Virus record (IMG/VR): IMGVR_UViG_3300042509_002108
Coordinates: 1 to 58,171 of that record
Source of the DNA: a virus
Length of the DNA: 58,171 nt
Strand: one strand, 5' to 3'
Below the pieces are notes generated by a model. It was given only the letters and a program-made list of their open reading frames with translations. It searched no databases and was not told where the DNA came from. This document shows, piece after piece, positions 6,274 to 58,171 of the stretch. Numbering within the stretch: the first letter of the stretch is position 1; the number at the start of each line of letters is the position of its first letter. The position numbers and the translations under genes are program-made.

Positions 6274-7209
6274 TCAAGTGTAGACGAGACTGAACTCGTC
6301 GTTGCCTGCGGTCGAGGGGACGCAGGTGTAGGGGATGGTCAGCATGTGGATGCCATCCTGGTCGCTGTAGCTGACATCGCCGATGTCGACCTTAGTGGAG
6401 GCAAAATCAACGATGTTGCCGGCGGTCTGGCCGTGCTGGAACAGCAGGTTGCCAAGCGCGCCGTCAGCAAGCGCAGCAGTGAAGTAATCCTTCTGCGCAA
6501 TGGTTGGCGCTTCGATGGTCACACTGCCAGTGCTGGCGCGATCAGTCAGCAGCACCTGCTTGGTGCAGTTGATCAAGTCGCGGTACACCAGAGTGTTGCC
6601 GATGTCGAAAGTCACCGACTGCAGGCAACCGCTATAAGAAAGCAGTTCAAAACCAGTCGTGTTGCCGTTTTTGGCAACTACCGGGTTGGCTTGATCGGCG
6701 TAGGTGACCGAAGGAGCTGCGGTGTCAGTGGGAGCGTTATACACACCAGTGAAAGTGAAATCAATGGTGGGGATCTCGCCAACGGCTACATTCAGCGTGT
6801 AAGTGCCACGAGCACCAGTCACTTTATGCAGCAAGCCATCGATGTTGTAATAGATGGTGCAGCTACCAAAACTTGCGCTTACGGGCGCATAGGTCACGCT
6901 GGTAGTGGCAACGATAGTTTCACTCATGCCACAAGCAAGCAGAGCCTTGCCATAGCGAGGAGCGGTGCCAGCGGTGCCAGAACCAGCCAATTCAACGCTA
7001 AACGTACACTCAACACGAGTGTTAGCCAGCAGTTGCTGAGACGCGCCTAGATAAGGGCGAATCAGATCACGGCTGACAACATCACTCTGCAGAGGAGTGA
7101 TATTCAGATCGCGAACCAGAACGGCGTCGGCGCCGGTCGGAGTCGGATCCGTCCCGTACGTCGATTCCGTCTCCAGAAGGATCAGGCGCTTCCGAGTTAG
7201 AAGGGGCAT
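6274..7209 (-). CDS. Major tail (tube) protein
   Basis: This 311-residue protein begins with the LTRKRLILLETESTYGTDPTP-like opening typical of siphophage tail tube subunits. It polymerises as rings around the tape measure. It has a beta-rich composition with repeated Thr/Gly/Val segments and no membrane region. The ATG at 7209 is preceded at good spacing by AAGAGG. It lies just after the tail completion gene and ahead of a strong terminator and the chaperone pair, as expected. Confidence 0.93.
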   Translation of the reverse strand: MPLLTRKRLILLETESTYGTDPTPTGADAVLVRDLNITPLQSDVVSRDLIRPYLGASQQLLANTRVECTFSVELAGSGTAGTAPRYGKALLACGMSETIVATTSVTYAPVSASFGSCTIYYNIDGLLHKVTGARGTYTLNVAVGEIPTIDFTFTGVYNAPTDTAAPSVTYADQANPVVAKNGNTTGFELLSYSGCLQSVTFDIGNTLVYRDLINCTKQVLLTDRASTGSVTIEAPTIAQKDYFTAALADGALGNLLFQHGQTAGNIVDFASTKVDIGDVSYSDQDGIHMLTIPYTCVPSTAGNDEFSLVYT

Positions 7210-14444: not shown

Positions 14445-16298
14445 TCACCACTGCTTCACAAAACTCCGCTTCGGTGTCGCCGCCGCACGCACACGCTTCG
14501 GCTTCTCCTCACCGCGCCTTTCGAGTTGATCCCATATCGTCCTCCTGTCCATCTTCTGGTACAAACGATGCAATGCCGCATACGCATAATTCATTTCATC
14601 CAACGCTTCGTTTGCAGCCTGACTCTTCTTCACCCACACACGCTCGGGATAGCCGTTCCTAAACCGCAAGATCTGCTTCTCGGCTGTCAATTCCTCGAAA
14701 TAATCCGTTCCAATCGTTGGGAAGAAATGCAAATATCCCGCCCCGGGCTCATTGTGCTTCAACCGACCAAACAACAGCGATTTCACCGTGTCGACGCCTA
14801 CCGGAAACAACTGTGCCCCTTTCTTTAGCGCTTTACCTTTGTAGTCCACGTCTACCTTCGATGCCTTGCCAAGCGGTGGCTTGCCCTTCTGCGACATACC
14901 CTTAATCGCAATCACGCCCATTGCTGCACGCTCCCTGCTGTACTGATACACCTCTTGCGTGTGATGACCGCCGGAGTCAATCGCGCAACACAGTACCTTC
15001 ATCTCCTCATCGGCCTCATTCAGGTAAGGCTTCTGCAAAATTTCGTCCAATTGCTTCCACACCTCTGGTCGAGATGGACTCCCATATAGCTTCACGCGAT
15101 CGATCAGCCAGCCTTCTTCCTCGCGACCCCATCCCCACACACTGAGCGACAGGCGGTCATCCTGCACATCGCACCCAATCGTCAACGCCAGCACCTCGGC
15201 AGGTGGCACATATTGCTGATACTGCTCCTCTGCTGCGCGCTCGAGCAGAGAATCGGCGCCAACCTTCGACGCATACTCGTCTTCCCACGTCTCGCCAAGC
15301 ACCGTATTGACGAACGTTTTTAGCTGTTCTGCGTCATTTTTTGCATCCAAGAATTCTTCCACCAGATTTGGCCACGTTGCATTAGGGCTGTAGCTATACG
15401 CCGCCCAGATATGAAACCCCACATGCTTCCCATTGCCCGGTGCAGTAGCGCGCCACTCGCCCCGCTCCACCATCCAACGCTTTTTAGAATGTGGAATTAT
15501 TACACCACATGACTCGCAGCAATATCCCGCTGTGCTCGGGTCACCATCAGTCCAGCGAATGTTTGGCCATTTCAGGTACTGCATATGACCACAATCAGGA
15601 CACGGAACGAAATAGCGACGCTGATCCGTTTGCAGGAACATGCGCTCCACACGGCTGAAGTCCTTCACTGTCGGCGTGCTACCGGACACAATTGTGCGAT
15701 TCCAGTAGTACTCCGTCCTTCGGATACCAAGCTTGATCTGGTCGCCTTCCGCACCCGCAGAGGCTGGGTAACCATCGATCTCGTCAAATAACACCACCCT
15801 TCTGCTGACACGCCGGAAGCCGCGCGGGCTATTAGCGCCCACCATGCTCAGCGTTCCACCTGGGAACTGCTTTTGCAAAATCGTATTCGCGCCATCTTTT
15901 GCCTTTGACTCGCTCACCAAACCCTTCAAGCAAGGCGTATCACGCAACATCGGCGCGATCTCTTCCTTTGAATATCCCTGCGCATCCTCAATTGTTGGCT
16001 GCACCAGCATGATCGGACACGGATCCTGGTGAATATGGAATGCAATGGTGTGGTTCAAAATCTTCGAGTACCCCACGCGGGCGCTCTTCATCACCGTCAC
16101 CTGTTCAACCTTTGCATCCGTTATTGCATCCATAATTCCTTTTTGATACGGCAAAGTATGCCATCTGCCGCCCTCTGCGCTGCTTTCTGCGCTTAAAAAC
16201 GCATAACGATCCGCCCACTCGCTCAAAGTCAGCTTTTCTGGCGGTCGAAACGCCATAAACGCTGCTTTTTTTACCCTTAGCAGGTTGTCCTCAGTCAT
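14445..16298 (-). CDS. Terminase large subunit, GpA type
   Basis: I use the ATG at 16298 (617 residues), which overlaps the small-subunit stop by the 8 bases ATGACTGA; the frame up to 16373 lies within that gene and is rejected. The sequence carries a GpA-type ATPase with a variant P-loop (MKSARVGYSK), a Walker-B-like VVLFDEIDGYP, and a zinc-binding segment with CPDCGHM and CCESCGV. Downstream is a nuclease domain with TIGCDVQDDRLS. GpA terminases cut concatemers at cos and pump DNA through the portal, implying cohesive-end packaging. Confidence 0.96.
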   Translation of the reverse strand: MTEDNLLRVKKAAFMAFRPPEKLTLSEWADRYAFLSAESSAEGGRWHTLPYQKGIMDAITDAKVEQVTVMKSARVGYSKILNHTIAFHIHQDPCPIMLVQPTIEDAQGYSKEEIAPMLRDTPCLKGLVSESKAKDGANTILQKQFPGGTLSMVGANSPRGFRRVSRRVVLFDEIDGYPASAGAEGDQIKLGIRRTEYYWNRTIVSGSTPTVKDFSRVERMFLQTDQRRYFVPCPDCGHMQYLKWPNIRWTDGDPSTAGYCCESCGVIIPHSKKRWMVERGEWRATAPGNGKHVGFHIWAAYSYSPNATWPNLVEEFLDAKNDAEQLKTFVNTVLGETWEDEYASKVGADSLLERAAEEQYQQYVPPAEVLALTIGCDVQDDRLSLSVWGWGREEEGWLIDRVKLYGSPSRPEVWKQLDEILQKPYLNEADEEMKVLCCAIDSGGHHTQEVYQYSRERAAMGVIAIKGMSQKGKPPLGKASKVDVDYKGKALKKGAQLFPVGVDTVKSLLFGRLKHNEPGAGYLHFFPTIGTDYFEELTAEKQILRFRNGYPERVWVKKSQAANEALDEMNYAYAALHRLYQKMDRRTIWDQLERRGEEKPKRVRAAATPKRSFVKQW

Positions 16299-16818: not shown

Positions 16819-17164
16819 AAATAGATGTTACACGCAATGTCCAGCTAGCGTAAAGCAAAATCTTGTGATATAATGCCCGGCTTTTTCGAAAGCGGACGGG
16901 GTAGGGGACGCATTGTTTGACGAATAGAAGATACTTCGGCGAATTGTACCTAGCCGTATGGAGCGATTCGAATTACCTCGCGGGTCCCGGGCGCCAGAGG
17001 GACCCGAGTTTGTGTCAAGATATCAGCCGCAGATAAGATTGCAGGGTATTCTTTATAGTTTGCAGATTCTCGCGATAAAGAACACAAACGAAACGCAACC
17101 GGCAAAGCGCACGGCCGCGCATGCAAACGCGCGCCAATAGATGTCAGCTACTGGCGCGCACAAT
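16819..17164. other. Gene-free region upstream of the terminase; candidate cos/packaging site
   Basis: About 350 bp without a convincing gene between the terminase start and the end of the GC-rich island. In phages with Nu1/GpA terminases, cos lies just upstream of the small-subunit gene. Visible structure: an extended -10 element reading rightward (16866-16874), an 8-bp inverted repeat CGGGTCCC/GGGACCCG (16981-17006) and smaller hairpins. A 60-codon plus frame (16958-17140) lacks protein-like composition. Confidence 0.5.
16866..16874 (+). promoter_or_regulatory. Extended -10 promoter TGATATAAT
   Basis: A perfect TATAAT preceded by TG at the extended -10 spacing, with no good -35 box. It would transcribe rightward into the gene-free stretch, against the flanking minus-strand genes, so it would make a non-coding or antisense transcript. 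Confidence 0.45.
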
Positions 17165-17214: not shown

Positions 17215-18276
17215 TTACCTGGTGAGGATCAATCGACCGTCCGCTAGTTCAACCGTCGGCGCGTCCGCGATCGTGAAACGTTCCGCGATCGTTCGATCCG
17301 CACCGCGTGCGCGCTTCTCTCGCAAGATGACGGCCGAACCGGCCGGATCATTCCAGCGTGCGTCGCCGGTTGCGTCGCCGTCGACGGCCGGCAATGTAAC
17401 GGCGTCGCCGTACGTTTCGATCGTGACGGATCGCAGGGGCGCCGCATCGCGCGCAAGCCGAACCGGGAATGCAACGCGCAAGCCAGCACGCACGGCCGCG
17501 ATTGCGTCGCGGCAAGCGGTCGACCGATCGGCCGCAAACGATGCGGTGACGTCTTGCCATCCGGCGGCAAGCCAGGCAAGCGGCGACGTCGGCGCGTCAA
17601 CGCCGGCCTTCAGGTATTCGTAGAAGCGCACGGCGCCGCGCGCGCGCATCGGCGCGAACGTTTCAGCAAGGTTTAACGCGTCGCCGGTTTCAATGTCGAC
17701 GCCGAACCGCCGACGGATTGCGACGGCGTCGGCCGGCGTTATGGGTGCGACGCGACCAGCCCAGAACGTTTCGTCAGTTCCGCACGTCCGCACGGCGCAC
17801 GGCATGCCAAGACGTTCCGCGCGCGCCAGTTCGGCCGCGATTGCGTAAACCATGGCGCGCGTATACGTAACGGGATCGGCGACCATGGCAAGCGTTCGCC
17901 GGCCGCGACACGCGGCGACGTCGGTAGAAAGGCCGCCGTGGCCGGCGCTTGCTAGGCAGCCTGCGATGCATCCGGCGGTCGCATGCATGCATCCGTTGTG
18001 ACGGCGCGCCAGTTCGGCGGTCCCGGTACGTTCCGCAAGCGCGGCAAGCTCCGGTAGGTAACCGCGCGGCGCGATGCTCGCGACCGTTCGCGGATCGATC
18101 GCGCGCGCTAGTTGGCGTTGCGGTAACGCATAGTGCATCGCGTTATATGTTCCGCCGGCGGCCGTCTTGGCGGCCTTGGCGCTTGTCGTTGTGAGAAGCG
18201 AACCTAGGGTCAGTTCGAACGTTTCAAGCATGCCGGCAATGTCGGCCGGTAAGCGGTGCGGTGCGTTTGTGCGCAT
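17215..18276 (-). CDS. GP88-like protein of unknown function
   Basis: 353 residues. The segment HNGCMHATAGCIAGCLASAGHGG, then RRTLAMVADPVTYTRAM, then LGMPCAVRTCGTDETFW matches the GP88/DUF7227-type family found in actinobacterial and proteobacterial phages and plasmids. Its cysteines are spaced C-x6-C-x3-C (residues ~96-107), suggesting metal or cluster binding; the biochemical role is unknown. Codon use is far more GC-rich than in neighbouring phage genes. Start at ATG 18276, ten bases downstream of the CTTACCGCTT motif. Confidence 0.7.
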   Translation of the reverse strand: MRTNAPHRLPADIAGMLETFELTLGSLLTTTSAKAAKTAAGGTYNAMHYALPQRQLARAIDPRTVASIAPRGYLPELAALAERTGTAELARRHNGCMHATAGCIAGCLASAGHGGLSTDVAACRGRRTLAMVADPVTYTRAMVYAIAAELARAERLGMPCAVRTCGTDETFWAGRVAPITPADAVAIRRRFGVDIETGDALNLAETFAPMRARGAVRFYEYLKAGVDAPTSPLAWLAAGWQDVTASFAADRSTACRDAIAAVRAGLRVAFPVRLARDAAPLRSVTIETYGDAVTLPAVDGDATGDARWNDPAGSAVILREKRARGADRTIAERFTIADAPTVELADGRLILTR

Positions 18277-19399: not shown

Positions 19400-19576
19400 T
19401 CAGTATCCGCGCGCTAGTTCGGCGTCGATTGTTGCGCGCATGCTGGCGATCCGCGCGGACGCGGACGCAGTCGCGGTCTCCTCAATCGCGCGCAGTCGCG
19501 CAGTAGCTACAGAGAATGCATCGGCAAAAGACGGGAGCGACGGCGCGGCGTTGCCGTGAAAAGGCGTTGTGCGCAT
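19400..19576 (-). CDS. Small helical protein of the GC-rich island, 58 aa
   Basis: An open frame from ATG 19576 to TGA 19400: MRTTPFHGNAAP followed by a long Ala-rich helix (ATARLRAIEETATASA) and RATIDAELARGY. It overlaps the end of the upstream gene by 95 bp in another frame. Protein-like composition here versus the Arg/Cys-rich tail of the overlapping frame suggests this one is real. Confidence 0.5.
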   Translation of the reverse strand: MRTTPFHGNAAPSLPSFADAFSVATARLRAIEETATASASARIASMRATIDAELARGY

Positions 19577-19901
19577 CGGCGGCGCTTAGACGCGGATCGA
19601 CGCGATACGCGGCAAGGCATGCGGCGCGGTGCGCGTCGGCGGCCTTGCGCGCAATCGCGCGAACAGTGAGCGGATGCGGCGCGGTACGCGCCGAAATGGC
19701 GTCGACGGCATCGGCCGTCTTGGCTTCTAGCGCTAGTTGGCGCAAGCCGCCGACGTTAACGGCGCGACCGTCGATCACATACAGAAGCGTTTGGCAGCCA
19801 TAGCGGCGCGCGGCGTCGCACTTAGTTGTGCGCGTAACGGTGTGACCGGCGGCGCGCAGTGTGGCGATTGCGTCGGCAACGCGCGTAAGGGTTTCAGCCA
19901 T
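19482..19901 (-). CDS. Unrecognised protein of the GC-rich island, 139 aa
   Basis: ATG 19901 (MAETLTRVADAIATLRAAGH) follows the CTTACCGCTT motif by 3 bases. The first ~115 residues are a plausible folded helical protein (TTKCDAARRYGCQTLLYVIDGRAVNVGGLRQLALEAK). The final ~25 residues overlap the 58-aa gene and are unusually Cys/Arg-rich, perhaps read-through of an eroded end. Function unknown. Confidence 0.58.
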   Translation of the reverse strand: MAETLTRVADAIATLRAAGHTVTRTTKCDAARRYGCQTLLYVIDGRAVNVGGLRQLALEAKTADAVDAISARTAPHPLTVRAIARKAADAHRAACLAAYRVDPRLSAADAHNAFSRQRRAVAPVFCRCILCSYCATARD

Positions 19902-19914: not shown

Positions 19915-20095
19915 CGGTAACGCACCCATATATAGGTGCACGCGCGCCGCATGGCAAGCCGTGCATGGGGCAAGTGTGCCGGATTGCCGCGCGGACGCGT
20001 TGCCATCAGCACAACGGCCGGCGCGACCGTTACCGCATGCCGGCCGCGTTCGCGTGCGTCGGCGTCGACGGGTCGCCAGTTCGACGCGTGCGCCG

Positions 20096-20263
20096 GTGAG
20101 CTTCACCAACCCCACGGGGTAGTGAGCTTCACCAACCCCACGGGGTAGTGAGCTTCACCAACCCCACGGGGTAGTGAGCTTCACCAAGCCCACGGGGTAG
20201 TGAGCTTCACCAACCCCACGGGGTAGTGAGCTTCACCAACCCCACGGGGTAGTGAGCTTCACC
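20096..20263. repeat. Iteron array: 6.5 copies of a 26-bp repeat
   Basis: Units start at 20096, 20122, 20148, 20174, 20200 and 20226, with a 12-base partial copy at 20252-20263. All are identical except one base in the fourth. Each contains two short inverted repeats, GTGAGCTTCAC and ACCCCACGGGGT. Strict 26-bp spacing and no spacers argue against CRISPR. Iterons of this type bind replication or partition proteins, so this is a candidate origin, partition or operator locus. Confidence 0.9.
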
Positions 20264-20282
20264 GTGCCGGCGCAAGTTACAG

Positions 20283-20329
20283 ACGCAAACACCCCGCGCG
20301 TTTGCGTTTTAAACACCCCGCGCGTTTGC
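20283..20329. repeat. Two 19-bp direct repeats with internal palindromes
   Basis: AAACACCCCGCGCGTTTGC occurs at 20287-20305 and 20311-20329, 24 bp apart. The first is extended into a perfect 8-bp inverted repeat ACGCAAAC/GTTTGCGT around a 9-base centre. It lies 20 bp from the iterons and is likely part of the same protein-binding locus. Confidence 0.8.
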
Positions 20330-20450
20330 ATCACCCACAGGCGCAATCGCATCGTCGCTGTCACTAACTCACTGCGAGTTTGTGACATCGGCCGCTGCAT
20401 TGACGATTGCACGCTGATGCAAACCGTGCGGCCTTATGTATAAACAATAG

Positions 20451-20520
20451 GGGGCGTGTGCGCGCGCGGCGGCGCTCGGCGGCGCGGCGGCCGGCGGCGC
20501 GGCGGCGGGGCGTAGGCGGG
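20451..20520. repeat. GC-only low-complexity tract
   Basis: About 70 bases built almost only of GGCGGC/GCGCGG words. No coding or hairpin-terminator logic is evident. It separates the iteron locus from the 27-bp repeats. Confidence 0.7.
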
Positions 20521-20551: not shown

Positions 20552-20632
20552 CCTTAAGAAAACCGACGCTTCAGAGTTCCTTAAGAAAACCGACCCCTCG
20601 CAAGTCCTCAAGAACCCGCCCCGTCTGAGTTC
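20552..20632. repeat. Three degenerate 27-bp repeats
   Basis: Units begin CCTTAAGAAAACCGAC at 20552 and 20579 and CCTCAAGAACCCGCC at 20606, exactly 27 bp apart. The first 16 bases are identical in the first two. The spacing equals nine codons, but the plus frame through them has no convincing start or domain, so a binding-site array is preferred. Confidence 0.7.
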
Positions 20633-20727: not shown

Positions 20728-21234
20728 ATGCCACGCAAGCTGCCAAGCGCCGATTATTTGCGGCAATTCGTAAAATACGACCCAACCACTGGTGACTTCA
20801 TATGGCTCGGGGACAATTCGACAAGGAGAAAACAGGGCGAAGCGATAAAAACCAAAAGCAAAAGCGGATACATTTTGGTAAGACTCGCGCCGCTTAATTA
20901 CATGGCGCATCGACTTGCGTGGCTTCTAGAGAAAGGTGAAGACCCAGGCCATTTCGAGGTTGATCACATAAACGGCGACAAAGCCGACAATCGAATTGAA
21001 AATCTAAGGCTTTCAACTCGCGGACAAAACAGAGCAAATTCAGCTCACAACAAAAGCAGCAAATCCGGCCTAAAAGGGGTTTATTGGTGTAAAAAGCAAA
21101 AGAAATGGCGAGCGCAAATTACGGTAAATAAAAAAGTGATGAAGCTTGGCGCTTTTACCGATCCATTTGAGGCTCACATGGCATACAGGGAAGCGGCGGT
21201 TAAATATCACGGCGAATTCGCCAACTTCGGCTAA
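20728..21234 (+). CDS. HNH homing endonuclease with AP2 domain
   Basis: 168 residues. An HNH nuclease core (FEVDHINGDKADNRIENLRL) is followed by an AP2 DNA-binding domain (SGLKGVYWCKKQKKWRAQI). Such free-standing enzymes cut a target site and spread with their own gene. It has its own promoter and terminator and is transcribed opposite to its neighbours, with lower GC than the adjacent island, all signs of insertion. It is a paralogue of the gene at 45058-45564. Confidence 0.92.
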   Translation: MPRKLPSADYLRQFVKYDPTTGDFIWLGDNSTRRKQGEAIKTKSKSGYILVRLAPLNYMAHRLAWLLEKGEDPGHFEVDHINGDKADNRIENLRLSTRGQNRANSAHNKSSKSGLKGVYWCKKQKKWRAQITVNKKVMKLGAFTDPFEAHMAYREAAVKYHGEFANFG

Positions 21235-21988: not shown

Positions 21989-22318
21989 TCAATATGAGAT
22001 CTGCACTGTCGCAATGCCGTCCAGCGGCACACCAAGTGCCGCTGCGGCCCCAGCGGACAGGTCAATCGACCCACACGAGCACCGATCCCGTATCGGCACC
22101 ACAAGCACGCGCCCCCGGTGTCGCACCGTCACCCGCGTGTTACACGGCAGCCATGGATGCGCTGCTGAGATTCCCCAATGTTGATATGTGCCGCCGCAAT
22201 ATTCAGTACGACCGTGATACCAACCGTCGTAAACCGTTGCAGTCACTGGCCGTGCATCTGCTGGCGCAGGCACCAACTGCTGAAGAATTACGGCAAAAAA
22301 AATTACTGTGCGTTTCAT
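21989..22318 (-). CDS. Secreted RlpA-like double-psi beta-barrel protein
   Basis: 109 residues with a clear N-terminal signal peptide (MKRTVIFFAVILQQLVPAPADA). The mature part (GGTYQHWGISAAHPWLPCNTRVTV ... VVPIRDRC ... IDLSAGAAAALGV) has the layout of RlpA/expansin-like double-psi barrels that bind or cleave cell-wall glycan. The Asp of RDRC and the Asp of IDLS correspond to the usual active-site region. Export to the periplasm suggests help in lysis, superinfection exclusion or wall remodelling during lysogeny. Confidence 0.82.
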   Translation of the reverse strand: MKRTVIFFAVILQQLVPAPADARPVTATVYDGWYHGRTEYCGGTYQHWGISAAHPWLPCNTRVTVRHRGRVLVVPIRDRCSCGSIDLSAGAAAALGVPLDGIATVQISY

Positions 22319-22348: not shown

Positions 22349-23071
22349 TCACTTAACGGCCAGCGCCCATCGAGGCGCACGGCCGCTCTCGCCCATTTCG
22401 CGCTGCAGCTCACGGCAGACCACCTTCACCACCACGCCATCAGTCCCCCACGGGCGATTCCACAGCTTCCCTGCCTTCCACTTCGCATGCAGCCCCTGCA
22501 CCTCATCGATGCGGGTGGTGAGCAGCGAATCCACCACGTCGAAACCCAGGTCGCCGATCAACGCCATCGCATCGATCTCTGTGCGCTCCTGGAAGGCGCC
22601 TCCATATGCGATGAAGCCCAAACCACCTGAACCACCCTTCATGCGCCTCAGGGCCGTCGCTGGCGTGCTCTGACGGCCATCGTGCCCCCATAGCTCACCG
22701 CGCACCTCCAACACATCACTCACAGGCAGCCGCACAGGCACAAGCCCCTGCACCACCGCCATGCAATCGCGACCGCTCCGTGTCCACGCCGCAGCAAGCA
22801 CACCACGCTCGTAACGCAGCGCCACTGCAGCGCCGTCGATCTTCGGCTGCACCAACACCGGCACACCAGGCCACCAATCCTCGAGCAGGCCGTTATCGAG
22901 CGACAGCAGCGCCGTACCACCGCCTGGCTGCTGCAGCTCTGGCGCCATCGGTGCCACCACGCGCAGCTCTGCACACAGCGCATCGAACTCGGCATCGGTC
23001 ATCAGCGCCTGGCCGGCCCTGTAAGCCGCGTCTGCCTGCCGCACCTGCTTCCTCAACGAATCAACCGACAT
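22349..23071 (-). CDS. Minimal NAD-type DNA ligase (adenylation domain)
   Basis: 240 residues from ATG 23071 (MSVDSLRKQVRQAD). The Ia-type helical opening is followed by the nucleotidyltransferase domain: KIDG at residues 77-80 holds the AMP-accepting Lys, then EVRGELWG, GFIAYGG, TDGVVVKV and RWALAVK. Cellular LigA is about 670 residues; OB-fold, zinc finger, HhH and BRCT domains are all missing here. It may be a compact nick-sealing enzyme or need a partner. A GGTAAGCGATAA variant of the island motif precedes the start. Confidence 0.88.
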   Translation of the reverse strand: MSVDSLRKQVRQADAAYRAGQALMTDAEFDALCAELRVVAPMAPELQQPGGGTALLSLDNGLLEDWWPGVPVLVQPKIDGAAVALRYERGVLAAAWTRSGRDCMAVVQGLVPVRLPVSDVLEVRGELWGHDGRQSTPATALRRMKGGSGGLGFIAYGGAFQERTEIDAMALIGDLGFDVVDSLLTTRIDEVQGLHAKWKAGKLWNRPWGTDGVVVKVVCRELQREMGESGRAPRWALAVK

Positions 23072-23105
23072 AACCGGTAAGCGATAACGCCACAAATTAT
23101 GGCAC

Positions 23106-24211: not shown

Positions 24212-26821
24212 TCAAGCGGGACTCTTGTGAGACTCGGTAGGTTCCAATTGCTCAAGCGGCACAAGCGTGGCCCGTGACGTCCCCATGCCCTTAAAACGAA
24301 TTGCTGAGCTCGCTGCGGACGCTCCAGGCACCCTCCGAAGCGATTGTCGATATGCGTTACCGGCCCAGGGTGTGTCCTTCAAAATGCCCTGCAAATTCGT
24401 GCTGCTATTCGCGATGGCGAGCTCTCGATGCATCACTCGCAGCCCATAGCGACCAAGAACAGTTTCGATTTCGTCCGATGCCTGGTCCCTTCCTGGCAGC
24501 GCATAGACCACTCCCCGTCGAGCAAGCTGGATCAGCTCCATGACGCTCATGCGCTTGCCCCCCTCCACCTGAATTAGGTGCTGCAGGACGTAGTTCAGGC
24601 ACTTGTTCTCATCGGCGTCTTCTGCGTCAATTTCGCGTGACTGCCAGTCCATTTGATCGATCCACTGAAGAGCCTGCTCAAGCGAAAGCTCGCCGCCGCC
24701 ATCTACCTCCAGACTCCAGGCACCAGCGAGGAGCGTGCCGTACTGATCGCCAAAGCGCTGACCAAAACGGCGTGATAGAGCAGTGGCGAGGGTCCGAGCG
24801 TTTTTGCGAATGGTGGGGATGTGCTTGAGGGTCCGAGCGACGAGGAGCCTGCCGTTCTCTTCAGTGCAGGCATCCAAGATTTGCTGCTCGAATTCAGCCC
24901 AGTCGTCTCGCTTGGTCTCATCGCGTCTCAGGCTGAGAACACAGAAGCGATCAAGATCAGCGCGTTGTACCAGAGCGACGTTGATGGAAGAGACGCAGAA
25001 CATGGAGCGGATCTCGAAAGTGTTGGATCCGCCGGTCGCGGTGCCCTTATAGATCTTTCCGCCTTCAGATGAGGCGATGCGAGCGAGAGCAAGGATGTTC
25101 TGGACGATCTGCTTGTCCTTCTGTTCGTTCTGCTCAAGCTCGTCGAAAACGATGGGGATAGCGTCTGAGCGAAGTTGACCGCGCAGGCCGGCTTCAGTGG
25201 TGCCACCGGTAGCGCCTTCGAACATGCCACCGAGGAGTGGCTTCATGAAGGTTTTGAGGATGGTGGTTTTTCCGGTGCCGGCCCCGCCAGTGATCCATAT
25301 ATGAGGTCTCCAGGTCAGGGCGCCACAGACCGGTGCGAGAACGATCCAGCCGAGGAGGAGCTGAGAAGATGCGGGTGTTTCCCAGCGGAAGCGTTCGGCA
25401 ATGTTGGCGATTGAACGAGCTAGGTCGTCTGAGAGGGACTCAGAGCCTGGGCCGTCAATGGCTTTGGCGTTTTCGTAGAAGTAATAGCTACGGAAAGAGC
25501 TTGGAAGTTTGGTGATGGCAGATGAGATGCCATCGATAACGAGTCGATTGCCGAGGTGAAGAATGACGCGATCTGCATCTGCCCATGCACCGCGACCACG
25601 CACGCGGGAAGGATCGTAGATGCCTTGTGCCATGCAGGTGCGCATGACGTGATTAGCGGCCGAATCCCAATCAACGCGGCCCTTGTCATCACCGAAGCCA
25701 TCAATCCACCACTGAATATCTGCTAGCTGGAAGAAGTGACTTTTGTTGTGCTGTGCGGCGGTAAGGGATAGAACCTGACAGGACTCGCGGGGGAGGTAGA
25801 AGTAAGTGCCGCGATCATGGCCGAGGAGGAGGAAGGGTAGCGAGGAGCCAGTGATAGGCGCTTCTGGTTCAGCGGCTATCTGTTTTAGGGCTTGGGGTGG
25901 TTCGACGACTCGCTTTGGCTGTCGGTAACCGTCTTTACGAGCCCAGTACCAGAAGGAGGCGGCGTTGATGCGATTGAAGGTCGATGCTGCAACCTGATCG
26001 ATTTCAGCGAAGAGCGGGCTGTGGCGCTTCATAAGGCGCTTGGCATCCTCGACACCTCCACCTGCCTCTTCACAAGCTTTGATTAACGCCCAAAGAAGAT
26101 TACGGTAAAAAGGATATTTTTCAGTCTTAGGAATAGCTGCGGGAATGTGATTTAGTGCTTTCTCAATTTCAGTAAGATCTTGCTTTTCGTACTGCGTAAA
26201 TGATTGCGCTTGCTGTATTTCCTGCTGCAGCTCTTCAGTAGGTATCGCGGAATTAAGTTGATCGTATGTGTAGTACTTTTCGGAGCTATGAATAATACTT
26301 ACTTTATCAGTTAACGCACCGGAGCCATTTGCATAAAAAGTGCCAGGCAACCTGAGAACGCGCGAAAGATTCCGTATTGTTTGATCAGCTTGCGTGTATT
26401 CCAGCAAGCGGGCCTGGAGAGGCAGCCACTGATCTGGTGAAATGGTGTCGCTGAAGATCCAATAGTTGTGGATTGATTTGCCACCCGTCGCCACCTGTAG
26501 AGAGGGCTCAGGAAGGCCAAGTTCTTTCCAGGCTGTGACCTGCCATTCAACAGGGCGATTGTCCCATTCGCAGAAGATTGCGCGACACTGTTTGATGTCT
26601 GCATCTTTATCACCACCATCATTAATGACGACGTAAATGCCGCGACCCTCTTGCTGCCATTGGTGAATCAGTGTCGGATCAGGACCGCCCTTACGACCGG
26701 AGTCACCTTGTTTGGCGGGGTTTTCGGAATGGTAAAAAGCACGCAGACGGATGGCATCTGCGGGCTTGCGCAGTGCGCGAATGAAGGCGCGTGCTTCATC
26801 GCGATCAAATTGTTTTTGCAT
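24212..26821 (-). CDS. RepB-type primase fused to SF3-like helicase
   Basis: 869 residues. The N-terminal ~200 residues form an archaeo-eukaryotic-type primase: YVVINDGGDKDADI with acidic residues, CEWDN, GGKSIHNYW with the conserved Ser/His, and SRVLRLPGTFY. The C-terminal half is a helicase with Walker A GGAGTGKTT at 512-520 and Walker B IVFDELE at 557-563. Such primase-helicases start and drive replication of phages and plasmids. The start codon shares one base with the stop of the ribbon-helix-helix regulator gene. Confidence 0.92.
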   Translation of the reverse strand: MQKQFDRDEARAFIRALRKPADAIRLRAFYHSENPAKQGDSGRKGGPDPTLIHQWQQEGRGIYVVINDGGDKDADIKQCRAIFCEWDNRPVEWQVTAWKELGLPEPSLQVATGGKSIHNYWIFSDTISPDQWLPLQARLLEYTQADQTIRNLSRVLRLPGTFYANGSGALTDKVSIIHSSEKYYTYDQLNSAIPTEELQQEIQQAQSFTQYEKQDLTEIEKALNHIPAAIPKTEKYPFYRNLLWALIKACEEAGGGVEDAKRLMKRHSPLFAEIDQVAASTFNRINAASFWYWARKDGYRQPKRVVEPPQALKQIAAEPEAPITGSSLPFLLLGHDRGTYFYLPRESCQVLSLTAAQHNKSHFFQLADIQWWIDGFGDDKGRVDWDSAANHVMRTCMAQGIYDPSRVRGRGAWADADRVILHLGNRLVIDGISSAITKLPSSFRSYYFYENAKAIDGPGSESLSDDLARSIANIAERFRWETPASSQLLLGWIVLAPVCGALTWRPHIWITGGAGTGKTTILKTFMKPLLGGMFEGATGGTTEAGLRGQLRSDAIPIVFDELEQNEQKDKQIVQNILALARIASSEGGKIYKGTATGGSNTFEIRSMFCVSSINVALVQRADLDRFCVLSLRRDETKRDDWAEFEQQILDACTEENGRLLVARTLKHIPTIRKNARTLATALSRRFGQRFGDQYGTLLAGAWSLEVDGGGELSLEQALQWIDQMDWQSREIDAEDADENKCLNYVLQHLIQVEGGKRMSVMELIQLARRGVVYALPGRDQASDEIETVLGRYGLRVMHRELAIANSSTNLQGILKDTPWAGNAYRQSLRRVPGASAASSAIRFKGMGTSRATLVPLEQLEPTESHKSPA

Positions 26822-27027
26822 TACTTAACGGTAGGCATGGCAGCCTTCATGGCCTGATCGATAAGGCGGCGGATGAGGGCAGAGCGTGTATCGATGTCGC
26901 CAGCTTGACGATCGAGCCAGGCGACTTGGCGTTCGGGGAGTCGGATGCTGAGTGGCTTCAAGCGGGAGGGTCGGTTCAGACGGCATGGTAGCCGGTCCGC
27001 CAGCTTTGTGCTACGTTTCCGAGGCAT
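26821..27027 (-). CDS. Ribbon-helix-helix DNA-binding regulator
   Basis: 68 residues. A basic N-terminus precedes KPLSIRLPERQVAWLDRQAG and RSALIRRLIDQAMKA, the beta-strand plus two helices of CopG/Arc-type repressors. It starts 14 bp from the divergent plus-strand gene at 27041 and is cotranscribed with the primase-helicase, so it may control both directions from the short shared intergenic space. Confidence 0.85.
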   Translation of the reverse strand: MPRKRSTKLADRLPCRLNRPSRLKPLSIRLPERQVAWLDRQAGDIDTRSALIRRLIDQAMKAAMPTVK

Positions 27028-41242: not shown

Positions 41243-41402
41243 CTGCGGCGACGGTTATTTCATTGAGATCGGCGAAGAGCCGGGCATTGGCGAGGTGCGT
41301 TATGCCGCCTGCAGCCCCGGTGGTGCTATCTGCCGGTATGCCAATGATCTATGGCAGGTGCAAATTTATATTGAACACTTGAAGGGTAACAGGCCCCAGT
41401 GA
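41199..41402 (+). CDS. Small hypothetical protein, 67 aa
   Basis: GTG start at 41199 inside the previous gene. ADSQETAVPTGAIDCGDGYFIEIGEE then VRYAACSPGGAICRYANDL. Last gene of the rightward early operon; its end overlaps the convergent HNH gene by 77 bp. Confidence 0.55.
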   Translation: MADSQETAVPTGAIDCGDGYFIEIGEEPGIGEVRYAACSPGGAICRYANDLWQVQIYIEHLKGNRPQ

Positions 41403-41691
41403 TCCATTCGTAAACCTGTTGCGCGCGATGCCAGTTCCAGTGATGTTGCATCGTCCACCACGTCCACAACGAAGTGTGACCTTTTGAAGCGTTACAAGAA
41501 AGACAGGCGGGCACGCAGTTCTCAGGAACCGTGAGCCCGCCTCTCGCTTTTGGCTTTACGTGATCAATTGTGGTGGCGTGACGACCACAATATGCACAGC
41601 AGTCATGCCATGCGTCAAAGATTGATGCCCTGAATCGCTGTCTTGTAACTTTTTTGCTAACCAGTTCGACGCCATCGATCTGGTGCTCCAT
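41326..41691 (-). CDS. HNH endonuclease
   Basis: 121 residues. CAYCGRHATTIDHVKPKARGG then ACLSCNASKGHTSLWTWW gives the zinc-HNH core as in 29386-29679. It closes the rightward operon from the other strand, as homing-type inserts often do between modules. The C-terminal ~25 residues overlap the 67-aa gene. Confidence 0.88.
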   Translation of the reverse strand: MEHQIDGVELVSKKVTRQRFRASIFDAWHDCCAYCGRHATTIDHVKPKARGGLTVPENCVPACLSCNASKGHTSLWTWWTMQHHWNWHRAQQVYEWITGACYPSSVQYKFAPAIDHWHTGR

Positions 41692-57200: not shown

Positions 57201-58062
57201 ACGTATCCGCTTGAGGGGTGTAAGCCATGGAAAATCCTTGGCTGAACTGTCCGTCCTCGGTTGGAGCGGTAAAAATCTGGCGGCCAACAGTACCGCTAGC
57301 GCCACCTTGATCTGTGCCAGCAATGCGACGGCTGGGCGTAGGGCGATTTTCACCGAGCTGCGAGGACCAGTAGACGGCAAAGTCGCGGTTGCCAAGGCTG
57401 TTCAGTGCTGTGGTGCCAACGCGGATGCCGCCAAGCTCAGGGGCCTCACTGCCGTACTCGCCGGCAACGTAGATGCCTTCAAATGCTTGGTAGCTGCCGT
57501 AGCTGTAGATGCGGCTCCACACCAGTGCAGGCGCAAGAATCAAACCGCCGGTTAGAGCGCCGTCAGTGCCAGTGCCTCGCTTGCCAAACGGGATTGGAAT
57601 TGGCTGGCCGTATTCAGCAAGGGCGCTGATGTTATCGAAGCTGGTGGTTTGATTAAAACGAGTAGGGCCAATTTGATCTGCAAGTTTTTTACCCTTGATT
57701 TTTGCGGGTGACTCAAGTGCCGGTGCCTTAGGCGCCAGCAAAATACTGATCGCTGTAAGCGCAATACCAATAGCAACATTTACAGCAATAGTTGTTGCAA
57801 CTGTTTTTGCGCTGGCTGCCGCAGCAACGACAACTGGAACCATTGCCGCATAAATTTCTGGAATATTTTCGTATTCAGCAGGACGTACATAGGTCCGTTG
57901 AACTGCATAACGAGCAAAGGTTTTGTACTCTTCTTCGCTGCAACCAAGCGCCTCAATTAGCGCGATTTCATACGGTAGGAGCGGCGGATCGTAAAGCTTG
58001 CCACCGGTTTCCAGTCCACTGCGGAAATCAAGTGGTTTATGAATAGGATGCCACTCTGCCAT
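54211..58062 (-). CDS. J-like tail tip/host-specificity protein
   Basis: 1283 residues. Starts MAEWHPIHKPLDFRSGLETGG. An early hydrophobic region (about 70-115, VVVAAAASAKTVATTIAVNVAIGIAL) resembles the gpI part of lambda and suggests membrane interaction during DNA injection. The body carries beta/fibronectin-like modules and IRVITEATTYSATNNGG near the end. It begins inside the end of the NlpC/P60 gene in another frame (106-bp overlap); both frames look coding. Confidence 0.9.
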   Translation of the reverse strand: MAEWHPIHKPLDFRSGLETGGKLYDPPLLPYEIALIEALGCSEEEYKTFARYAVQRTYVRPAEYENIPEIYAAMVPVVVAAAASAKTVATTIAVNVAIGIALTAISILLAPKAPALESPAKIKGKKLADQIGPTRFNQTTSFDNISALAEYGQPIPIPFGKRGTGTDGALTGGLILAPALVWSRIYSYGSYQAFEGIYVAGEYGSEAPELGGIRVGTTALNSLGNRDFAVYWSSQLGENRPTPSRRIAGTDQGGASGTVGRQIFTAPTEDGQFSQGFSMAYTPQADTSFGTAEPIHNGTAFRFNWEIISAPYAATEGPDNKDARVETQARRRKIAGSDADVLHRYADQPKEDIPQVGMPGVGRAYSRRMGFVAHNGTTYDNRTIVAVSENDTLVFEINGNNWKEFNQSDFKDTEVNVKDLKASADSWRARASDLLAIGSKWIIGSSVWVVESRSPDTWKKGVTQQITFRCTAITGVATVGIPGTRTVREPLGGYEGSVFNPNKHCGAAFFNICRLHMASIRPVRRDAQVIEIGLRSQVWNRANGLCNFNAIPTPFKLHQLDKQDITLTTPRMDKYFERTSCFSIWVRPVQVYGQAQQPWRRIPQVFCVTGNAPVDQYNYIRIRPRQVGYYEYRFIPRTGSDIAINSIDTNQVVRLNANTGAEFGQDYATDYGAFRVTTNGDVVSIADIRLNDELVTDPQEASSVTTTQTTLPTALSQYDQSSNNGSIQQVVNAWLTEKLGYARDYPGRVRSATITFDKPGVGQIVFNVNATSVAGTLGVTIGQVYLNANRGNPYQWTNVSYSIISANGTWNTSHAFTVVIPVNNDFSRVGGYSAVNVAFAVTAVQAVSTVNSSTVSSAERVFEENSQVSDCSHYLELTKSNESGPEHQIVYVNECLSNETLAEYYGMSTLGFTVKSSGQLGGIGQIRAWVPTGINVYRLIEQDNKPSNLFADLVYYLLTSKSQGVGNVVPTELIDVESLTTTAQYLRANKIFFDGVVEDSDSLRSFLYDNAALQLCNFTIKNGRFGMMPALPYDSSYQISTTPIAIEQIFTSGNIIQDSLQVQYIDAAQRANFRALVTWRVTVENDLPTQASALVDWADIPEGSRSTTQQTFDLTDFCTNRAQALRTARFLLSIRRRVTHTVSFKTVPDALGIQPGSYIRVITEATTYSATNNGGITDAGTLVSVTSIANGTYDALIYNPSTGAVTEQRITIQNNAVTDSALRGCLFTLLSLQTSASVYQVEQLTLDEDGLVNISAVEVPVDSTGVSIVAKDVLTEANFRVLE

Positions 58063-58171
58063 TGGACTCCGAATTCAGGTGGCTTGGCGCCAAACAGAAT
58101 GATGTCACCATCGTAGATGGGAGCATCCAGAGTGTCGCAGTAAACAGACAGCTCCCGCAAGATGCCGCGTG
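57957..58171 (-). CDS. NlpC/P60-type tail peptidase, C-terminal part (cut by window edge)
   Basis: This is the same gene as at 1-257, seen through the repeated end. The part up to 57957 reads DIILFGAKPPEFGVQWQ, INHLISAVDWKPV and RRSYRMKSR, in frame with the N-terminus. It overlaps the first ~106 bp of the J-like gene. Confidence 0.85.
   Translation of the reverse strand, partial: RGILRELSVYCDTLDAPIYDGDIILFGAKPPEFGVQWQSGILFINHLISAVDWKPVASFTIRRSYRMKSR
58045..58171. repeat. Right copy of terminal direct repeat
   Basis: Identical to 1-127; see the left copy. It lies inside continuous tail genes, so no packaging site is implied here. Confidence 0.95.

Follow-up and report, generated by a model that had tools for sequence, protein, structure and literature searches.

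A 26-bp tandem array with adjoining covarying stems as a candidate replication origin in a tailed phage known from environmental DNA

What is the role of a block of 26-bp tandem repeats lying beside inverted repeats in the genome of a tailed phage? The window, by which we mean the whole 58,171-bp stretch of DNA analysed here, is an IMG/VR virus record of a tailed phage known from environmental DNA only. A sequence-only reading had taken the block for a plasmid-type iteron origin, partition or operator locus. The origins of PrimPol-helicase phages are poorly defined, with pRN1 and NrS-1 as the main models. The evidence presented below fits a genome-copying start site better than a plasmid-partition site, and we put the probability that the locus is an iteron-plus-stem-loop replication origin at about 0.5.

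The two ends of the window, which IMG/VR classes as linear, share 127 identical bases (1-127 and 58045-58171). Assembly of a closed circle leaves shared ends of this kind, and the window is therefore probably one, with a complete genome of 58,044 bp. Its structural genes encode a lambda GpA-type large terminase, a portal, a fused head protease-capsid protein and tail proteins, and are accompanied by genes for a tyrosine integrase, SF2 helicase, exonuclease VIII, thymidylate synthase and a PrimPol-helicase. A 13-mer present at both ends of the G001 contig (ATTCGAATTACCT) recurs in the window at 16966-16978, between terS and the GP88 gene; the L010 contig also stops at the equivalent place, and G003 carries ATTCGAATTAACC at both contig ends. 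The 16966-16978 site is a probable cos site. Other genes include one amid the replication genes for a small DPBB (RlpA-like) protein whose start is signal-like (21989-22318), a protein whose match to NAD-dependent DNA ligase is confined to the adenylation part (22349-23095) and a short HNH-like protein weakly matching IscB and Cas9d (41326-41691).

A partition centromere or plasmid-maintenance locus would account for tandem iteron-like repeats in a genome that also encodes a small ribbon-helix-helix (RHH) protein, and the sequence-only reading had gone on to suggest that the prophage could persist as a plasmid. However, profile searches found neither ParA (PF13614) nor ParB (PF02195) in any of the 11 genomes of this phage group, eight of which, the window among them, carry a tyrosine integrase, and the RHH gene lies 6.6 kb from the array, overlapping the primase gene. 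This leaves partition, and with it plasmid persistence, very improbable; judged by its gene content, the group looks integrative. Plasmid initiators of the Rep_3 (PF01051) and RepA_N (PF06970) families are likewise absent from all 11 genomes, for which reason we do not class the locus as a classical iteron plasmid replicon.

Within the window, TRF reports a single 26-bp array of 6.5 copies (98% match, score 329; Table 1). The number of units had been read correctly, as had the two inverted repeats inside each of them (GTGA-GCT-TCAC and CCCC-AC-GGGG), but the units are not all exact, copy 4 carrying one C>G change. No additional copy of the 26-mer occurs elsewhere in the record at up to 3 mismatches, and a reversed-pattern control also gave 0. 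The array is real and not a product of chance, since no other tandem array in the window reaches a score of 140, nor does any besides its counterparts in the relatives G001 and G003; in G002, too, only the array, split across the contig ends, reaches that score. Its copy number is probably correct as well: the apparent assembly word is 127 bases, the array measures 168 bp with the C>G variant near its middle, and every 127-base word inside it therefore covers the variant. Searches of plasmid and phage DNA returned zero matches, and Rfam gave none above the gathering score. Hairpin folding of the units is strong in the window (z -3.6) and is not general among relatives.

Table 1. Positions of the repeats, stems and genes discussed in the text, numbered along the window.
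Feature	Position	Strand	Basis
GP88-family protein (PF17338), locus marker in relatives	17215-18276	-	family match, model
First gene of the GC-rich operon; L030 homolog adjoins a different 26-mer	19482-19901	-	comparison
Promoter-like TTGCCA-N17-TATATA ahead of the GC-rich operon, recurring in relatives	19929-19957	-	by eye
Tandem array, 6.5 x 26 bp (GTGAGCTTCACCAACCCCACGGGGTA), proposed iterons	20096-20263	+	TRF, pattern search, comparison
Stem A, inverted repeat ACGCAAAC-N9-GTTTGCGT	20283-20307	.	compensatory changes in 6 relatives
19-bp direct repeat, copy 1 (AAACACCCCGCGCGTTTGC)	20287-20305	+	sequence search
19-bp direct repeat, copy 2 (AAACACCCCGCGCGTTTGC)	20311-20329	+	sequence search
Stem B, inverted repeat TGTCACTAACTC...GAGTTTGTGACA	20359-20387	.	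conserved with compensatory changes
AT-rich block TATGTATAAACAATAGGG, conserved; may be an unwinding element or a promoter	20435-20452	.	alignment of six relatives
2-3 imperfect 27-bp repeats (CCTTAAGAAAACCGACCCCTCGCAAGT), at the same place in relatives too	20552-20631	.	TRF, comparison
Replication protein, AEP PrimPol N-terminus and helicase C-terminus, possible winged-helix end; proposed initiator	24212-26821	-	sequence and model
Small RHH (CopG-like) protein whose gene overlaps the start of PrimPol	26821-27027	-	below Pfam cut-off, typical sequence

Relatives were collected through the PrimPol-helicase, the GP88 family and DNA patterns; two pattern hits, L053 and L058, are possibly due to chance and were given no weight. 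Arrays lie at the same syntenic place in these relatives, with a period of 26 bp (25 bp once), while their units differ and copy number ranges from about 2 to 30. The exact 26-mer of the window is shared with a single other IMG/VR contig (G001/L008, 10 copies), from a phage closely related to the window across much of its genome. By contrast, L010, with 94% identity in the replication protein, carries 5.6 identical copies of a different unit, GTGAGCATCACCTACTCAACGGGTCG, at the same place. Other relatives have their own units in 29.7 (G008), 9.8 (G009), 4.1 (L030), 3 (G003) and 2.3 (L031) copies; the G002 contig breaks inside its array, leaving some six copies at either end, and G012 has two sets, one of 25 bp and one of 26 bp. 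Beneath this diversity lies a shared directional core, GC-N-CACCTAACC, which aligns ten units in one orientation, their mean pairwise identity being 14.8 of 26 positions versus 11.9 ± 0.17 in shuffles. The core persists in G004 (four cores spaced 26, 26 and 25 bp) although the spacers have diverged. Chains of at least three cores are found at this locus only and run in a single direction, the exceptions being two doubtful pattern hits (G013 and G014). Direct repeats that stand in tandem in noncoding DNA and keep a common core are what one expects of iterons, and both the constancy of place and period and the persistence of the core support an origin.

The same comparison reveals losses. In L007, whose replication protein is 95% identical to that of the window, there are only about two degenerate copies; about half of the relatives have a degenerate array or none, which speaks against an indispensable origin, and several relatives bearing GP88 have no 26-bp array. 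Six cultured phages with a homologous helicase also have no array, a further point against the origin. Given L007 and the GP88-bearing relatives without one, the array may be dispensable, or its place may be taken there by other elements such as TAGTACAAATGTACTA palindromes. These losses, the 2 to 30 copies and the homogenised units that differ between close relatives would be explained if the tandem repeat turned over fast and had little or no function, or acted as a decoy for host proteins. That would not, however, explain why period, core, orientation and place are conserved across divergent relatives, and we consider it unlikely. A separate 15-bp repeat (35.6 copies, L048 7251-7797) lies about 2.6 kb from the 29.7-copy array.

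To the right of the array stand the two identical 19-bp direct repeats that the sequence-only reading had noticed, 24 bp apart from start to start. The gap separating them from the array measures 23 bp rather than the 20 bp given, and the supposed 8-bp palindrome around which they were said to be built is in fact an inverted repeat with 8-bp arms and an N9 spacer (stem A), complete at the first copy only. Stems A and B were examined together in an alignment of six relatives covering about 190 bases right of the array (120 cells). Pairing holds in 97.5% of cells, with both sides changed in 11, values that 0 of 500 shuffles reach in either respect; when partners are slid by 1-3 columns, 27-43% of cells pair. 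In the six relatives, the stems are therefore kept in pairing and not in sequence, as in pRN1, and this covariation argues for an origin. As judged from the aligned bases, it shows selection on symmetry and does not imply single-strand folding as such, since covarying pairs would also fit dimer-binding sites; this ambiguity, together with the small set of six related sequences, counts against the origin. At 12 of 12 loci the right flank, on the far side from the GC-rich block, is richer in AT than the left (about 60-75% AT in seven of them, weakly enriched in the window), again in support of an origin.

Dimer-binding sites would be at home in an operator or upstream activating array, in which a phage regulator on the 26-bp units and palindromes would control the promoter of the GC-rich operon at 19.93-19.96 kb. 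The promoter-like site stands about 140 bp from the array, between it and the operon, and recurs in relatives with a spacer of N16/17; on this account we retain the operator as the leading alternative, a real if doubtful possibility. A consensus promoter scan did not report this site. Variable copy number suits regulation, and other palindrome sets, for example four copies of TAGTACAAATGTACTA, occupy the same region in relatives. On the other hand, the conserved core is directional and not palindromic, up to 30 copies over 772 bp would be extreme for an operator, and the first operon gene does not track repeat type. We had considered such covariation with the adjacent gene and discarded it: the window and L008 share the gene, but in L030 it stands beside a different repeat.

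Several features of the surroundings are recorded here in their own right. In L015 (near 14800-15310, numbered along the locus), L043 (near 6900-7130, likewise), L035 and L036, the same intergenic region holds Fur-box-like palindromes (GAGAATGATTCTCATT) and repeated TAGTACAAATGTACTA palindromes. An HNH-AP2 endonuclease gene (20728-21234) adjoins the locus in the window and has a homolog at the same place in L030; none was found at this place in L010, L007 or G001. The GP88-family protein is modelled, weakly, as an alpha/beta (TIM-like) protein and not as a DNA-binding fold, and a Foldseek search against PDB gave no significant match for it.

Upstream of the array lie the genes for the RHH protein and the PrimPol-helicase, a putative operon of initiator-like make-up that adds to the comparative support for an iteron-type origin. 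Both the RHH protein and the AEP primase named by the sequence-only reading exist, encoded by overlapping genes, with several further genes in the roughly 4 kb between helicase gene and array. The RHH-type protein has 68 residues; ORF56 of pRN1 is of the RHH/CopG kind. The PrimPol N-terminus matches the AEP domain of cyanophage S-2L (6zp9, E 1e-32). The helicase half was modelled from 14 sequences with low confidence (pLDDT 63), and in this model it weakly resembles the self-loading initiators of SaPI/SCCmec: Foldseek places SCCmec Cch nearest (probability 0.92, E 0.006), and VIA-align gives MCM helicases, Cch and SaPIBov1 Rep at Z 6-7 (6.9 for the latter two, all Z below 8), with D5 helicases also among the best matches. 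The end of the model is predicted to run helix-helix-helix-strand-strand, an order compatible with a winged helix. Pfam gave no DUF927 match in the helicase. The AEP PrimPol, SF2 helicase and exonuclease VIII genes and the model's weak resemblance to Cch and SaPIBov1 Rep support an origin, against which stand the low pLDDT and Z values.

Could the array instead consist of sites at which the AEP PrimPol itself primes? NrSPol, the NrS-1 PrimPol, uses GTG(A/G) and TTTGGTTA (PMC8718748); each unit carries GTGA/GTGG motifs, most contain three GTG/CAC versus about two in shuffles, and the core holds the GGTTA of TTTGGTTA. Yet GTG is only slightly in excess, and not at all in L010; S-2L lacks an array of this kind; and in G012 (L087 6787-9282), as read from sequence, a CHC2 zinc finger and Toprim (DnaG-type) N-terminus replaces the AEP domain on the same helicase while array and core are kept. 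The array is therefore independent of the AEP primase; GTG priming as the reason for its conservation is weakened by this swap, and we hold the idea to be quite improbable.

Among the remaining points against an origin, DnaA boxes, which are common though not universal at iteron origins, are absent from the vicinity of the window array, and the turning point of GC skew falls at about 24.7 kb, within the primase gene and 4.6 kb from the array. As the minimum is scattered in relatives, we dropped skew as a pointer to the origin. We also looked for repeat type following the C-terminus of the replication protein and saw no covariation, which likewise tells against the origin.

Should the locus nevertheless be an origin, we infer protein binding, unwinding and firing there as follows. 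The PrimPol-helicase, or a small protein working with it, for instance the RHH protein, would bind the directional 26-bp iterons; the helicase would load and open the neighbouring inverted repeats and AT-rich block; and the single strands thus exposed would act as templates for the primase. More tentatively, and with rather low probability, this may be an origin type of the whole phage group, with a PrimPol-helicase or DnaG-helicase starting at a 26-bp iteron array that is homogenised per genome and switches type between close relatives. If so, co-infecting relatives could differ in replication compatibility. The group forms a natural series, in which locus and spacing stay constant while units change, the primase domain is swapped and some close relatives are array-poor, so that one can ask by experiment which protein recognises the repeats and which of the two, array or stems, is the part that matters.

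Known systems offer partial parallels. Cyanophage S-2L shares homologous PrimPol AEP domain, SF2 helicase and exonuclease VIII-type nuclease genes but lacks a comparable tandem array, its PrimPol being followed by a noncoding stretch with GTG/CAC-bearing inverted repeats (by eye). RSF1010 (IncQ) oriV combines iterons and a helicase with stem-loops at which an AEP-type primase acts (PMC4234260, PMC4538821); it differs in using three separate proteins, including a dedicated iteron binder, RepC, whereas the window has neither Rep_3 nor RepA_N. In pRN1, a small repressor gene (ORF56) and an AEP-helicase gene (ORF904) precede a stem-loop needed for replication, its pairing conserved and its sequence not (PMC4234260). 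The window appears similarly arranged, with an RHH match below the Pfam cut-off, but the pRN1 stem-loop begins 54 bp past the gene, where the window has several genes between, and no iteron array is described for pRN1. In SaPI/SCCmec, a self-loading initiator helicase (Rep, Cch, Cch2) binds direct repeats in noncoding DNA downstream of its own gene, where inverted repeats also occur; Cch2 binding is lost when the direct repeats are deleted, but not when the inverted repeats are (PMC7581432). Iterons there are short (5 nt in SCCmec), whereas in the window, a tailed phage genome of 58 kb, the putative iterons are near-exact tandem repeats of 26 bp and the helicase gene is about 4 kb away. That such helicases bind iterons beside their own genes (PMC7581432), together with the pRN1 layout (PMC4234260), supports an origin, and we place this reading first because the window has parts corresponding to SaPI/SCCmec, pRN1 and RSF1010 in one neighbourhood.
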